Shown piece after piece: positions 41,443 to 53,442 of a stretch of 64,000 nucleotides of DNA (within the stretch, counting starts at the first letter, position 1; every line of letters starts with the position of its first letter). The DNA comes from Spirosoma oryzae (GTDB lineage: Bacteria > Bacteroidota > Bacteroidia > Cytophagales > Spirosomataceae). The notes below the pieces were generated by a model. The model did not search any database and was not told where the DNA came from. It saw nothing but the letters and a program-made list of their open reading frames with translations. The stretch is taken from positions 62,001 to 126,000 of the forward strand of contig NZ_PVTE01000013.1 in the NCBI RefSeq assembly GCF_003002825.1, written 5' to 3'. The translations under genes and the position numbers were made by a program.

Positions 41443-41859
41443 TCACGTAGTTTCAGGGCCGTACTGATGGCTGTATTTAGGTCGGTAGAAATTAATGCCC
41501 TCGACGAAGGCAAAGTCTTTTTTGTTGAATGTGAATAGTTCGACAGGATAAGTAAGTGCGGTTGCCGCAATAATCATATCCGCTATGCCCGGTCGCTTCG
41601 CGTAATGCTCCCATGTCAGCGTAAGCAGTCGTCGTGATATTTCAGCATCCAGCCCGATTATGTTGAATTTGTTTATCGTCTCGATCGTCCTGCGCTTTTC
41701 GCTACGCTTCATGCCGACGTACATCTCCGCTTCGGAGATTACACTCAGATACAGCCGGTCGAAGCCCAGTTCGTCTAATTCCTGAACCATAATCGGTACT
41801 CCCCGAAAGTAGTCGAACAGGACGTTAGAATCGCAAAGAACTAACTTCTTTTTGGCCAT
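41443..41859 (-). CDS. vapC: PIN-domain toxin (VapC-like), second copy
   Basis: A 138-residue PIN protein. VLCDSNVLFDYF (Asp9) and ISEAEMYVGM (Glu45-region) and GIADMIIAATAL (Asp near 98) give the acidic active site; TFNKKDFAFV supplies the last acidic position. It overlaps the antitoxin gene by 19 bases. It lies between the efflux genes and the two-component system. Different from the vapC at 10.1 kb in sequence and partner. Confidence 0.85.
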   Translation of the reverse strand: MAKKKLVLCDSNVLFDYFRGVPIMVQELDELGFDRLYLSVISEAEMYVGMKRSEKRRTIETINKFNIIGLDAEISRRLLTLTWEHYAKRPGIADMIIAATALTYPVELFTFNKKDFAFVEGINFYRPKYSHQYGPETT

Positions 41860-45558: not shown

Positions 45559-46896
45559 ATGGGAACGGTTAGTGTAGTGTTGTTTCACAAGCCGCGAAAG
45601 GATGGAAAGTTCGCAGTTTGCATTCGTGTAGGTAAGGATCGTCGGTACAGCTACGAGTCGGTGTGTTACGTCAAAGCCACGCACTGGAACGACCGGCTAA
45701 AGGTAGTGCATACCTACGACCCCCACCACCTGACTTACAATAAGCTGATCAAGGACCGCTACAAGGAGATCGAGCAGATACTGGATGTGTACGACGATAA
45801 CGACTGGCCGTACACAGCGCAGGACATTCTGGACATTAACTACAAGAAATGGGCGGAGGAACAGAAAGCCAAATCGGAGGTTGCCCAAGCGGCAGTACCT
45901 GACGGGCTGATTCTGTTCTGTAAAAAGGTGATGGTGACCCGGTTCTACAAAGCTGAGCAGGTAGTCAACGCCGAGAAGTACGAGATCGAAGCGGAATTGT
46001 ACCGCCGTTATCTGGCCACACTGCGGCCCAAGAAAGTTGATATAGCCATGTCCACGCTCACGGTCGATTTCGTGAACGGGTTCTTTAGATATCTGCGGGA
46101 AGATGCCAAGCGCAAGGTCAGTAAAGATTCGACCTTACAGCGGCATCTGGCCCAATTGATGGCGATACTACGATACGCTCGTGATCAAGGGGTTATCAGC
46201 AAGGTGCCGACGCTGGAGGTACAACTGAACGTGCTAAAATCGAAGAAGGTCAAACTGAACAACGCGCAGATTGACCTGATGCTGAACGGACCGTGGCCGG
46301 AGGAATGGGCGGCTACCAAAGGCGGTCAGACTTCGTTACAGGCCATCGACACGTTTCTGCTCCAGTTCTACCTCTACGGAGCGCGGGTGGCTGACGTGAT
46401 GCTGCTTCGCAACAGGAATATCATTAGCCGGGGCGGGGTGCCAGTGAAGATCGAGTTTTATCAGAAAAAAGGGCGTCGTAAGGAGGGTAAGCGGTTGATG
46501 TCGATCCCTATACCGCCCCCCGCTTTGTCGGTTGTGTCTCGCTACTGGAAAGCCGATAAGCCCGAAGCCTATCTGATACCGTGGCTGGAATACGAGCCGG
46601 ACGTAACCCGAACGACGGCAGAAAACAAGCTGCTGATGGAGGAGGATATAGGCCGGGCTACGTCGCGTATGAACGCGGGTCTGCGTCGGTTGGAGTCGAT
46701 AACGAATACCGAACTGAGCGGGTTTACCTCCCACTCGGCGCGGCACAGCTATGCTCAGCGGGCTAAGCGAAAGGGTAAGTCAATCGAGTGGATTAAGGAA
46801 ACGCTGGGGCATAGTAATTACGATATTACGGCGGGGTATCTGGATGATCTGGACGCCGACGAGCTGAACCAGAATATGCAAGACGTTTACGACTAA
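45559..46896 (+). CDS. Tyrosine recombinase / site-specific integrase
   Basis: A 445-residue phage-type integrase. The N-terminal arm-binding and SAM-like core-binding domains occupy ~1-220 (VDFVNGFFRYLREDAK is typical). The catalytic part has Arg in YGARVADVMLLR, the HxxR box as HSARHSYAQRAKRKGK (~390-405) and the nucleophile tyrosine in TAGYLDDLD (~430). It is of the Bacteroidota mobile-element class and likely moved the island that follows. Both catalytic boxes are intact. The target site is not evident. Confidence 0.9.
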   Translation: MGTVSVVLFHKPRKDGKFAVCIRVGKDRRYSYESVCYVKATHWNDRLKVVHTYDPHHLTYNKLIKDRYKEIEQILDVYDDNDWPYTAQDILDINYKKWAEEQKAKSEVAQAAVPDGLILFCKKVMVTRFYKAEQVVNAEKYEIEAELYRRYLATLRPKKVDIAMSTLTVDFVNGFFRYLREDAKRKVSKDSTLQRHLAQLMAILRYARDQGVISKVPTLEVQLNVLKSKKVKLNNAQIDLMLNGPWPEEWAATKGGQTSLQAIDTFLLQFYLYGARVADVMLLRNRNIISRGGVPVKIEFYQKKGRRKEGKRLMSIPIPPPALSVVSRYWKADKPEAYLIPWLEYEPDVTRTTAENKLLMEEDIGRATSRMNAGLRRLESITNTELSGFTSHSARHSYAQRAKRKGKSIEWIKETLGHSNYDITAGYLDDLDADELNQNMQDVYD

Positions 46897-47961: not shown

Positions 47962-49245
47962 TCAGCGGACTGTAAGTATCTCTTTCCAGTCAGTTGTGCG
48001 CCGGGGCGACATCCATTGGCGTTTGTGGTGCCAACTTGAATCATACCCTGCACCAGCCAGCCGTACCCGGTCGCGGCCGTAGCGTTTATTCAGCGCATCC
48101 ATAACACCAGATAGCTTGCTCATCCGTCCGTCGGGCTCGTCGATGAATAAATGCTGTTGCAGATGCGTGTCTGGCACCAGGCCGCTCAGCATGACGCCTA
48201 CTTTCTGGTATTCGTAGCCAGACTTGAAAACGGCTTTCAGCAGCGCATGGGCGTAGCTGACCAACTCGGCTGTGCTGTTACTGGCGTGAGGAAGCTCGGC
48301 GGTACGGATACCGTGATACTGCCTGGCAGGCTGGCCGTTATGGGCTGTGATCTTGTGTCGGTTGGTATGCAGAAATACGGTAACTGCGCCGGCGGCAGAG
48401 CCTTATTTACGTAGCTTTTCGGCCGCGCGGCTCAGGTGTGTAACCATTGCCTGGCTGATCGTGTCCAGATCGGACACACCCCGTCCGAAGGATGGTGCCG
48501 TACAGATGGCCTTTTTGTTCGGTGCTTCGGTTTCGAGCATCTTGCAGGGCGTACCCCGTAACTCGTAGGCTAGGCGAAGGCCGTTGACCGTCAGCTTCTG
48601 GTTGATCCAGTCGTCAGGTAGCGCGGCAAACTGGGCGGCCGTGCGAATACCGTTACGTTTCAGCATACCGGCGTAACGCCAGCCGATACCCCACAGATCA
48701 TCGACGGAGAAGTCGGTCAGGGCATCGTTGATACGGCCTGGTGTGTCGAGCAGCAGGACGCCCGTTTGCGGTTCTTGTCGCTTGGCGTAGAAATTAGCAA
48801 TCTTACACAGCGTCTTTGTCGGCGTGATACCAACGGATACCGGTATACGTGTCCACTGAGCGATGGTCTGGCGGATGGTTGTAGCCAATAAAGTGAGGTC
48901 GGCATATACCGACTCGTAGCCGGACAGGTCCAGAAACGCTTCATCAATACTGTATACTTCGACCTGCTCAACGAATCGCCCCAGCGTGGCCATGACCCGG
49001 CTGCTCATATCACCGTAGAGCGTGTAGTTACTGCTGAAAATACGAATGCCCTGCTGCTCGATGTGCTCGCGCAACTGAAAGAAGGGTGTCCCCATTTTTA
49101 CAACTAGTGCCTTCAACTCGTTCGATCGAGCGATCAGGCAGCCGTCATTATTTGAAAGCACACCAACAGGCTTACCGATCAGGGCCGGGTTGAAGGCCCG
49201 CTCGCAGGAGACGTAGAAGTTATTACAGTCGACAAGAGCCAGCAT
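47962..49245 (-). pseudogene. umuC: Y-family DNA polymerase UmuC, interrupted by an in-frame stop
   Basis: The gene reads as one continuous frame of 427 codons apart from TAA at codon 281 (48403-48405). Before it: catalytic core with CNNFYVSCERAFNP (~7-20), SIDEAFLDLSGYE (~100-112) and the YxxY/thumb segments, ending AAEKLRK. After it, in the same frame, GSAAGAVTVFLHTNRHK and the rest of the little-finger domain down to a normal stop at 47962. Relatives have a Gln at this spot (EKLRKQG), so a single C-to-T change (CAA to TAA) explains it. The polymerase core without the little finger is not expected to be functional. Confidence 0.85.
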
Positions 49246-49248
49246 AAG

Positions 49249-49713
49249 CTACAGCGGTTTCTGAATGACAAACGTAACGACGCCAAACACCCGGAAGTCG
49301 TCGCCCTCGTGGACGTAGATCGGCGTGTATTTGGGATTGGAGGGCATCAGCACAATCATGTCGCCGTGTGACGGGCCTCCGGCATAATGCACCCGCTTCA
49401 CCGTGTGTTCACCGTTGATCCAGACCACGCAGATTTTACCGTCGACAGCTTCGCGCGACGAGTCGACGATCAGTATATCGCCCGGCTCAATTCGATCACC
49501 GGTCATACTGTCGCCGGTGACCCGCACGAAGTAGGTTGCTTCGGCATTACTGATGCACAGGTCGTTCAGATCACAGACGCGTTCGACATAGTTTTCGGCA
49601 GGGGAGGGGAAGCCGGCCCGTACTAGTGATCCGTAAAAGGGGACCCTCAACCGCTGTCCGACAGCCGCCTTCTGCATAAAATCGTCGCAATCTGTTTCGG
49701 TAAACTCGCTCAT
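49249..49713 (-). CDS. umuD: UmuD-like S24 peptidase, SOS mutagenesis partner
   Basis: A 154-residue protein from the ATG at 49713; a TTG at 49722 adds three residues. It has an AGFPSPAENYVE cleavage site (Ala-Gly near 33), the serine in GDSMTGDRI (~67) and the lysine in GEHTVKRV (~105), so self-cleavage is expected in response to RecA filaments. It overlaps nothing and ends three bases before umuC. It probably forms an operon with umuC that uses the palindrome at 49749 as its operator. Confidence 0.88.
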   Translation of the reverse strand: MSEFTETDCDDFMQKAAVGQRLRVPFYGSLVRAGFPSPAENYVERVCDLNDLCISNAEATYFVRVTGDSMTGDRIEPGDILIVDSSREAVDGKICVVWINGEHTVKRVHYAGGPSHGDMIVLMPSNPKYTPIYVHEGDDFRVFGVVTFVIQKPL

Positions 49714-49748
49714 ATAATACAAGTAGATCTATAAACCAGGTCACTATG

Positions 49749-52809: not shown

Positions 52810-52937
52810 CCAAATAAGGAAGTGCGCTGAACGCAGAGCGGTGTCAGTGCTATTACGGTATCTTGTACGATGCTTTGGTTGCGAATGAGCGCCGGAACTG
52901 ATAAAAAACGGCTGCGAGATTTTTTTGCTGAAAAATA

Positions 52938-52967
52938 TTGCCTCGTAAAATCGCCCATCTATATTTG
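52938..52967 (+). promoter_or_regulatory. Consensus promoter of the tRNA attenuator unit
   Basis: TTG at 52938-52940, a 19-base spacer and TATATTTG at 52960-52967 match the Bacteroidota -33/-7 consensus exactly. Transcription should begin near 52970-52972, that is at or almost at the ATG of the leader ORF (52972). Confidence 0.8.
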
Positions 52968-52971
52968 CGAC

Positions 52972-53040
52972 ATGAAAGCTCTTGGGCACACCACATTCTT
53001 TTCGTTTTATTGCTTTAGTCGGAAGCAAGCGGACGAATAG
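52972..53040 (+). CDS. 22-residue leader peptide of the tRNA-Cys-Phe-Tyr operon
   Basis: A short ORF (ATG 52972, TAG 53038-53040). After MKALGHTT comes the run FFSFYCF, encoded by TTC TTT TCG TTT TAT TGC TTT (52996-53016), then SRKQADE. Four Phe, one Tyr and one Cys in seven codons match the tRNA genes downstream (tRNA-Cys, tRNA-Phe, tRNA-Tyr). The promoter places the transcript start at or next to the ATG, so the ORF is nearly leaderless. The codons for SRKQAD include a sequence that can pair with the terminator 5' arm. I infer a ribosome-mediated attenuation leader; no translation evidence is available. Confidence 0.75.
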   Translation: MKALGHTTFFSFYCFSRKQADE

Positions 53041-53077
53041 TGCCTAATCTATAGCCATTATGTAAGCCGCTTGCTCC
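53021..53077 (+). promoter_or_regulatory. Antiterminator pairing (leader 3' part with terminator 5' arm)
   Basis: GGAAGCAAGCGG at 53021-53032, inside the leader ORF, is complementary to CCGCTTGCTCC at 53067-53077 (11 bp, one bulged A). That second sequence contains part of the 5' arm of the terminator at 53064-53091, so the two structures exclude each other. A ribosome stalled on the Phe/Tyr/Cys codons just upstream would leave 53021-53032 free to pair; one that reaches the stop codon at 53038 would cover it. Confidence 0.75.
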
Positions 53078-53096
53078 ACAGTAAGCGGCTTTTTTT
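53064..53096 (+). terminator. Attenuator terminator upstream of tRNA-Cys
   Basis: AAGCCGCTT (53064-53072) and AAGCGGCTT (53083-53091) form a perfect 9-bp GC-rich stem with a 10-base loop, followed by a run of T to 53096. The tRNA-Cys gene begins two bases later. Confidence 0.85.
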
Positions 53097-53098
53097 GT

Positions 53099-53172
53099 GC
53101 CTAGTATGCTCATTGGATGGGCGTTGGTCTGCAAAACTGATGTAGTCAGTTCGATTCTGACACTAGGCTCCA
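53099..53172 (+). tRNA. tRNA-Cys (GCA)
   Basis: Seven-base-pair acceptor GCCTAGT/ACTAGGC, D stem GCTC/GGGC, anticodon arm TTGGT-CTGCAAA-ACTGA with anticodon GCA, T arm GTCAG-TTCGATT-CTGAC. The 3' TCCA follows, so CCA is encoded. The D loop is very short. First tRNA of a three-gene unit under the attenuator. Confidence 0.88.
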
Positions 53173-53173
53173 T

Positions 53174-53246
53174 GGAACTGTTACCGAGATGGTCAAGGTG
53201 CTGCACTGAAAATGCAGTTATGTCGGTTCGAGTCCGACCGGTTCCA
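53174..53246 (+). tRNA. tRNA-Phe (GAA)
   Basis: Acceptor GGAACTG/CGGTTCC (one T-G), anticodon arm CTGCA-CTGAAAA-TGCAG with anticodon GAA, T arm GTCGG-TTCGAGT-CCGAC. The D arm (ACCGAGATGGTCAAGGT) is unusual and partly resembles that of class II tRNAs. CCA is not encoded. It begins one base after the end of tRNA-Cys. Confidence 0.88.
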
Positions 53247-53251
53247 CAAAT

Positions 53252-53333
53252 GAGTATGCGCCGAAGCAGGAGAGTCGGGGCGGTCTGTAAAACCGTTGTT
53301 CATACTGAGTAGGTTCGAATCCTATCATACCCA
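53252..53333 (+). tRNA. tRNA-Tyr (GTA)
   Basis: Acceptor GAGTATG/CATACCC with an A-C mismatch at the second pair, anticodon arm GCGGT-CTGTAAA-ACCGT with anticodon GTA, a ~12-base variable region (short for a class II tRNA), T arm GTAGG-TTCGAAT-CCTAT. CCA is not encoded. It is the last gene of the unit; the mismatch may be real divergence or decay. Confidence 0.78.
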
Positions 53334-53442
53334 CTTTACTTACATAAACTTGTAAGATTCAAGAAAGGACAGCTCCTTGCGGCAACGCAATTGCTTATCG
53401 GGGCTGGCAGGGTATGGGGCGCGTAGACTGTATCGTGCAGTC

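Follow-up and report, generated by a model that had tools for sequence, protein, structure and literature searches.

Leader ORFs and terminators ahead of tRNA arrays in Spirosoma oryzae and in phages: probable ribosome-mediated attenuation

The 64,000-nt stretch of Spirosoma oryzae DNA analysed here (NZ_PVTE01000013.1, positions 62,001 to 126,000 of the forward strand; hereafter the window) carries three tRNA genes directly behind an intrinsic terminator, which in turn follows a 22-codon ORF with Phe, Tyr and Cys codons. Does translation of this ORF decide whether the tRNAs are transcribed? To judge from the nucleotide sequence, it very probably does: ribosome-mediated attenuation would let transcription enter tRNA-Cys, tRNA-Phe and tRNA-Tyr when Phe, Tyr or Cys codons are decoded slowly. 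An earlier note on this DNA had proposed such control, and the promoter, the 22-codon ORF, both pairing segments, the terminator, and the three tRNAs on which it relied were all recovered where it had placed them (sequence, ARAGORN, and Rfam).

The leader and tRNA array of Spirosoma oryzae

The locus extends from the promoter through tRNA-Tyr (52938-53334) and comprises the following elements:

52938..52967, + strand: promoter of the Bacteroidota type, with TTG at 52938-52940 (-33), a 19-nt spacer, and the -7 box TATATTTG at 52960-52967 (sequence)
52972..53040, + strand: 22-codon leader ORF MKALGHTTFFSFYCFSRKQADE (...FFSFYCF...), from the ATG at 52972 through the TAG to 53040 (sequence)
52996..53016, + strand: putative control codons 9-15, TTC TTT TCG TTT TAT TGC TTT, for Phe Phe Ser Phe Tyr Cys Phe (sequence)
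mostly 53005-53016, + strand: segment 1, overlapping the control codons (1:2 hairpin in the fold)
53021..53032, + strand: segment 2, GGAAGCAAGCGG, 5' half of the putative antiterminator (sequence, duplex energy)
53067..53077, + strand: segment 3, CCGCTTGCTCC, 3' half of the putative antiterminator, within the 5' arm and loop of the terminator (sequence, duplex energy)
53064..53096, + strand: intrinsic terminator, a 12-bp hairpin 3:4 (53064-53091) with T7 (53090-53096) (fold, -18.2 kcal/mol)
53099..53172, + strand: tRNA-Cys (GCA) (ARAGORN, Rfam)
53174..53247, + strand: tRNA-Phe (GAA) (ARAGORN, Rfam)
53252..53334, + strand: tRNA-Tyr (GTA) (ARAGORN, Rfam)

In the proposed mechanism, transcription would start at or next to the leader ATG. 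A ribosome that translates the leader without delay would arrive at the stop codon and mask segment 2, and the 3:4 terminator would then form. If the tRNA for a control codon is scarce, being cut, uncharged or out-titrated, the ribosome would wait in codons 7-14 and leave segment 2 free; segments 2 and 3 would then pair ahead of the synthesis of segment 4, letting RNA polymerase into the array. The new tRNAs would relieve the stall, closing the operon again.

The folding energy of the window leader is -47 kcal/mol; 200 dinucleotide shuffles average -29.2 (z -5.1), and not one of them folds as well. Its best fold contains the 1:2 hairpin, formed over the Phe-Tyr-Cys-Phe codons and segment 2, plus the terminator, and the 2:3 duplex reaches -20.3 kcal/mol, better than shuffled sequence at p 0.02. 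Counted from the A of the ATG, the -7 box occupies positions -12 to -5. According to the sections of the Flavobacterium psychrophilum study used here (PMC9723704), the sigma-A box of that species is located at -12 to -5 from the transcription start, and leaderless messages make up 5.5% of the mRNAs counted. Since the two boxes are placed alike, the window ATG probably coincides with or adjoins +1.

The host genome yielded 41 Rfam tRNA matches (150 of 186 candidates were scored). The Cys and Tyr genes of the window have the two lowest scores among these 41 and the Phe gene stands mid-list, so the set looks accessory. The array is located on the bacterial chromosome. A tyrosine integrase gene (45559-46896) lies about 6 kb away, with UmuD-like and UmuC-like genes in between, and no phage structural protein was found among the eight window proteins scanned with PHROGs. 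The window copy is probably a remnant derived from a mobile element. At 48403-49722 on the minus strand, the UmuD-like gene adjoins a UmuC-like gene that is shortened, since its product of 280 aa ends at profile position 282 of 425 (phrog_1268). A PIN-domain protein (PF01850) with the VapC-type RNase fold is encoded at 41443-41859 on the minus strand, about 11 kb from the tRNA array.

A DNA search over 39 genomes gave matches in seven of them and two further Spirosoma copies, designated G001 and G002. The G002 leader MNLLSQYQFKRTFCYQQTTGDDIG and its terminator precede tRNA genes for Cys, Lys, Phe, Tyr, Trp, Arg, and Gln; every amino acid of the array except Trp is present in the leader, the tRNA-Trp being without a Trp codon. 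Segments 2 and 3 of G002 are wholly unlike those of the window in their letters, with the pairing kept (-25.5 kcal/mol), and the neighbours include an SNF2/PLD helicase. The G001 leader MKNQGLFSYSTYCTALQADS and terminator are followed by tRNA-Thr(UGU), tRNA-Tyr, and tRNA-Ser(GCU). Its codons include ACG, ACA, two TAT, and AGT, as well as TCC, which is unreadable by its Ser(GCU) tRNA. A phage minor tail protein gene (PF10145) at a distance of about 3 kb, together with an AbiGi-like gene about 8 kb away, makes a prophage setting probable for this copy. The layout, which the earlier note had suggested looking for in other genomes, thus recurs in the genus with other codons and other tRNAs, and it was also found on many phage contigs. 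Rejected candidates from this search were L004, L005, and L006, of which one is a fragment resembling a tRNA and two are terminators that follow protein genes, as well as L007 (a lone tRNA-Phe, detected by ARAGORN only).

A pattern scan of the genus matched 7 of 36 genomes, with the window and G001 as members; G002, with an ATG-to-T-run gap of 126, escaped the pattern, whose maximum was 125. The scan of the order matched 34 of 390 genomes, a sample that holds neither G001 nor G002, with 38 places listed. The window was the sole member among the 30 places with a locus, and the remaining eight were judged from 80 letters each; a tRNA-Lys place (L189) looks like chance. The genome_contigs scan produced 103 stretches, of which 14 were non-redundant with a downstream tRNA, seven being member-like (L284, L319, L321, L331, L332, L369, and L378) and seven chance-like. 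The likely members are from Arsenicibacter rosenii (tRNA-Cys, two contigs), two Chitinophagaceae MAGs, a Lacinutrix MAG, and Chitinophaga pinensis YS-16 and Chitinophaga sp. YR627, the last two having tRNA-Trp arrays and a ...SWSW... leader. In Chitinophaga (L321 and L369), two leader Trp codons stand ahead of three and five consecutive tRNA-Trp genes. The window DNA matched 28 phage records, the best 20 of the 28 all with tRNA-Tyr-sized pieces, and gave no match against plasmids. A tblastn search with two leader peptides returned one weak match (L504, without a tRNA) for one of them and none for the other.

Occurrence in phages

A search pattern consisting of the -7 box, an ATG, a T-run, and the tRNA T-arm, with coding content left unused, was run on IMG/VR. 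At a box-to-ATG gap of 4 nt, 104 stretches were found, 80 of them with an ARAGORN tRNA 100-320 nt past the ATG; a tRNA was present in 3/41, 10/48, and 7/27 stretches at gaps of 3, 5, and 8 nt, respectively. The first viral scan had comprised at least 120 stretches. The messages of the class are probably leaderless, since the 4-nt gap puts the ATG at +1 when measured against the sigma-A box position given in the sections used of PMC9723704. Exceptions are the second leader of Cellulophaga phage phi4:1, located 22 nt behind the box, and the second leader of Maribacter phage Panino, located behind another ORF. The class was found mostly on phage contigs, one of which (L235) has three arrays and three matching leaders. 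In L235 as well as in L499, one phage carries three tRNA operons with their own leaders, which jointly cover most amino acids. The tRNAs of one array favour codons sharing the first letter (mostly U or C): first-letter entropy over 37 arrays was 0.89 versus 1.21 when permuted (sd 0.054), the middle and wobble letters being unclustered.

Among cultured phages, phi4:1 (L251) and phi17:2 contain three arrays each, with three leaders common to both. The leader MKIQRLHLQELEQPIISGGTGV precedes tRNA genes for Pro, Glu, Gln, His, Leu(UAG), Leu(UAA), and Arg(ACG). The leader VQLTKTGITVIDKTKGARAYLGDTVIG, which has a GTG start, precedes those for Ala, Lys, Ile, Gly, Met, Asp, Thr, Val, Arg(UCU), and Met, Lys being absent from the phi17:2 array, and MKTNYCTYNNSNWSFSYDTGSVC... 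precedes Tyr, Ser, Asn, Trp, and Phe. In phi19:1, MNNNTIHIQRLPQPKRF... is followed by Pro, Gln, His, Leu, and Arg. Panino has MKTQRLHQELEQPTNIGRDFYGVDGY before Pro, Glu, Gln, His, Leu, Leu, and Arg, and MRAATGIAIIGRTKDKPLGRISVL before Ala, Lys, Ile, and Gly, with Asp annotated further on. Tenacibaculum phage Gundel_1 has MKTKLYSYSCFSSWF... before Phe, Ser, and Ser (ARAGORN) together with Tyr, Trp, and Cys (by eye), and MKTNNLHIQQNNLPVF... before Pro, Gln, Met, Asn, and Leu, where an HNH endonuclease gene (L503:3688-4384) splits the leader and terminator from the matching tRNAs. The leader ORFs at L501:1082-1177 and L499:4975-5094 are enclosed in slightly longer annotated hypotheticals (PANI_CDS0063 and Phi4:1_gp075, respectively), so such leaders may go unnoticed in public annotation. 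By eye, no such leader was seen upstream of the tRNA array of Bacteroides phage DAC19, and none was recognisable among the listed short ORFs of the crAss-like cr116_1, in which the region upstream ends at the record end.

Two marine viral contigs, L114 and L124, were chance catches of the first viral scan and differ in style. By eye, they show a TTGACA-type promoter, an AAGGA-type Shine-Dalgarno sequence, and a ...CWP... leader followed by tRNA-Trp, with a G-run able to pair with the C-run of the terminator. The loci of this second family are:

L114:6170-6460
L124:2030-2320
L517:1250-1850
L508-L611

A pattern of Cys-Trp codons and a terminator, in which tRNA letters were unused, retrieved 106 stretches. 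A short CWP leader was present in 76 of them, 75 with a tRNA within 300 nt and the remaining one at a contig end. The first tRNA was tRNA-Trp in 75/75 cases, many of which continue with Pro and/or Cys, Trp standing alone in 28. The stretches lacking a short CWP leader divide into 6 with a tRNA and 24 with neither. There are 36 distinct CWP leaders, and a Shine-Dalgarno-like stretch is present in 67/75; the 75 cases are not independent events because their leaders resemble each other. No match to this family was obtained in INPHARED at E 0.01.

Codon match, antiterminator pairing, and folding models

After deduplication, 102 records remained, of which 91 have an ORF of at least 12 codons; content was not used as a filter, and false hits were kept. 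The codon tests were carried out on these 91 records, which exclude the window, G001, and G002, and the folding set of 93 leaders consisted of 90 of the 91 plus the window, G001, and G002, with 89 leaders in the stall models.

Leader codons 7-14 are read by the tRNAs of their own array in 57.6% of cases versus 23.3% for permuted arrays (sd 2.3, z 15.1, n=91). In the subset with <40% core identity (n=48), the values are 58.9% and 21.9% (z 12.6), and 0/20,000 permutations reached the observed match in either set. The match is restricted to the ATG frame, being absent in frames +1 and +2 (z -0.1 and 1.6, n=91) and also after the stop codon (z -0.1, n=48). Chance as its source is ruled out by these permutation, frame, and after-stop controls. 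For the 73 arrays with at least two amino-acid types, leader residues 3-18 contain 294 of the 304 types that the tRNAs represent; permutation gave a mean of 173.3 (sd 9.6) and at most 204 in 2,000 runs. Coverage is complete for 63 of the 73 arrays. Arg codon boxes agree with the isoacceptor, with 25 CGN and 2 AGR codons in the 29 arrays having only a CGN-reading tRNA-Arg, and 0 CGN and 3 AGR codons in the single array having only an AGR-reading one; for Leu and Ser boxes, the agreement is loose.

The mean pairing energy of nucleotides 36-72 is -13.2 kcal/mol with the terminator 5' arm of the same leader and -8.3 with swapped arms (sd 0.30; 0/20,000), as calculated for the 68 of 93 leaders that passed similarity and length filters. 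No other arm pairs better than the own one in 12/68, and in 63% the own arm ranks within the top tenth. Against shuffles, the 2:3 pairing reaches p<=0.05 in 59% of leaders only, and the 1:2 hairpin, weakly supported across the class, in 13% (mean z -0.5). Those checks put forward with the original proposal that can be made on sequence came out in its favour: leader codons vary with the tRNA content of the array, and segments 2 and 3 vary in concert.

The leader might nevertheless mirror the codon use of its array for non-regulatory reasons such as local codon bias, the terminator merely lowering basal tRNA transcription. In favour of this, induction is so far only predicted, and a hairpin before a T-run is present in 93/93 leaders, though the T-run belonged to the search pattern; however, the frame, the position, and the co-change of segments 2 and 3 make this explanation very unlikely, as do the three leaders within one phage that each fit their own array. 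A T-box-like leader RNA, which would bind uncharged tRNA through specifier codons and stabilise the antiterminator independently of translation, is a shade less probable again. The products are tRNAs and an antiterminator is present, but Rfam at gathering thresholds identified the three tRNAs and no T-box in the window. Moreover, the codon match is found only in the frame of an ATG at a fixed promoter distance and only in a region immediately preceding segment 2, which counts against direct tRNA pairing because that needs no frame. Least probable of all is that the encoded peptide itself acts, as an arrest peptide or small protein with its composition a by-product: some leaders are alike (e.g., the MKT..LHTQRLQEP types) and might share a peptide function, but the residues differ completely between arrays of different content with the 2:3 pairing retained, and the codon match persists at <40% core identity. 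Attenuation by a translating ribosome survived the sequence-level refutation tests, namely codon tracking and the co-change of segments 2 and 3.

The geometry of the leaders is compatible with such attenuation. The quartiles are nt 45-51 for the start of segment 2, nt 63-72 for the stop codon, and nt 89-101 for the terminator. Segment 2 follows the last matched codon (median nt 42) at a median distance of 8 nt (n=75) and ends before the stop codon. With the ribosome in codons 7-14, segment 2 would therefore mostly be accessible; with the ribosome at the stop codon, it would be covered. When a stall at codon 10 was modelled with segment 4 not yet made, the terminator 5' arm was predicted to be paired upstream (P>0.5) in 96% of leaders (n=89) versus 42% of shuffles; with the ribosome at the stop codon, the model gave 1%, a value that is partly trivial, little upstream RNA being free there. 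At equilibrium with segment 4 included, a codon-10 stall gave a predicted P(terminator)<0.5 in 22% of the 89 leaders and 2% of shuffles (Wilcoxon 9e-8), and the best of codons 7-12 gave it in 33%. Modelled equilibrium switching was not seen in G001, phi4:1, and L235. Kinetic control is assumed because the terminator wins at equilibrium in most leaders.

For the window, the equilibrium model predicts P(terminator) of 0.96 with a free leader or a ribosome at the stop codon and of 0.03-0.39 with stalls at codons 8-12. A stall at codon 7 leaves the predicted terminator in place, which is also the best fold when the A site holds Cys14 or Phe15; some control codons of the window may therefore be inactive. 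The comparison of own with swapped pairing points to an antiterminator that is mutually exclusive with the terminator; in these models, it is favoured kinetically and, in a minority of leaders, at equilibrium. Sequence and statistics show the layout, the codon-anticodon match, the frame, the 2:3/3:4 complementarity, the geometry, and the recurrence in phages.

Possible function and comparison with known systems

The likeliest use of such loci would be in phages that supply tRNAs missing from the host or destroyed in it. It is somewhat better than an even bet, in our judgement, that phages maintain codon-resolved tRNA homeostats, that is, several operons, each with a leader in the codons of its own tRNAs, so that loss of a host tRNA, for example to tRNA-cutting immunity, would switch on its replacement. 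Such homeostats would have arisen at least twice, in a leaderless form in Bacteroidota phages and in a Shine-Dalgarno Cys-Trp-Pro form in marine phages. If the arrays are turned on when their own codons are decoded slowly, the leader would state the purpose of each array at codon resolution and would provide a natural sensor for the decoding of single codons.

Phage tRNA arrays are thought to offset tRNA loss during infection (tRNA-depletion hypothesis), according to the parts consulted of PMC10264068. The relatives found here resemble the clusters treated there in being groups of tRNA genes in phage genomes, the window copy being chromosomal. They carry a putative control element, of which the parts consulted of PMC10264068 mention none for the arrays; in that text, the word 'transcription' is absent and 'regulat' appears twice, on other matters. 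If the attenuation holds, the tRNA-depletion hypothesis would become directly testable in cultured pairs such as Cellulophaga baltica and phi4:1. A search of open-access journal papers by titles and the starts of abstracts returned no precedent for leader-peptide control of tRNA genes, and we know of no earlier leader-peptide attenuator that makes tRNAs.

T-boxes occur before operons that include a tRNA gene. Like T-box riboswitches, the present leaders would couple the choice between terminator and antiterminator to tRNA status; unlike them, they have a match that depends on the reading frame, and the window is without an Rfam T-box match. Ribosome-mediated attenuation controls amino-acid biosynthetic and synthetase operons, such as trp, his, phe, leu, ilv, and pheST. 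In the narrow sense, an amino-acid-operon attenuator precedes genes that make or charge the amino acid, and the genes downstream here are tRNAs. As in trp-, his-, and phe-type attenuators, a short leader ORF contains control codons, the 2:3 and 3:4 hairpins exclude one another, and a terminator stands before the genes. Unlike those, the leaders described here would regulate tRNA arrays, one leader can list up to six or seven amino acids, the carriers are mostly phages, and the message is probably leaderless in most members of the Bacteroidota type. The class of mechanism is a known one; new to us are its use on tRNA genes, leaders that serve several tRNAs at once, the leaderless messages, and the occurrence in phages.
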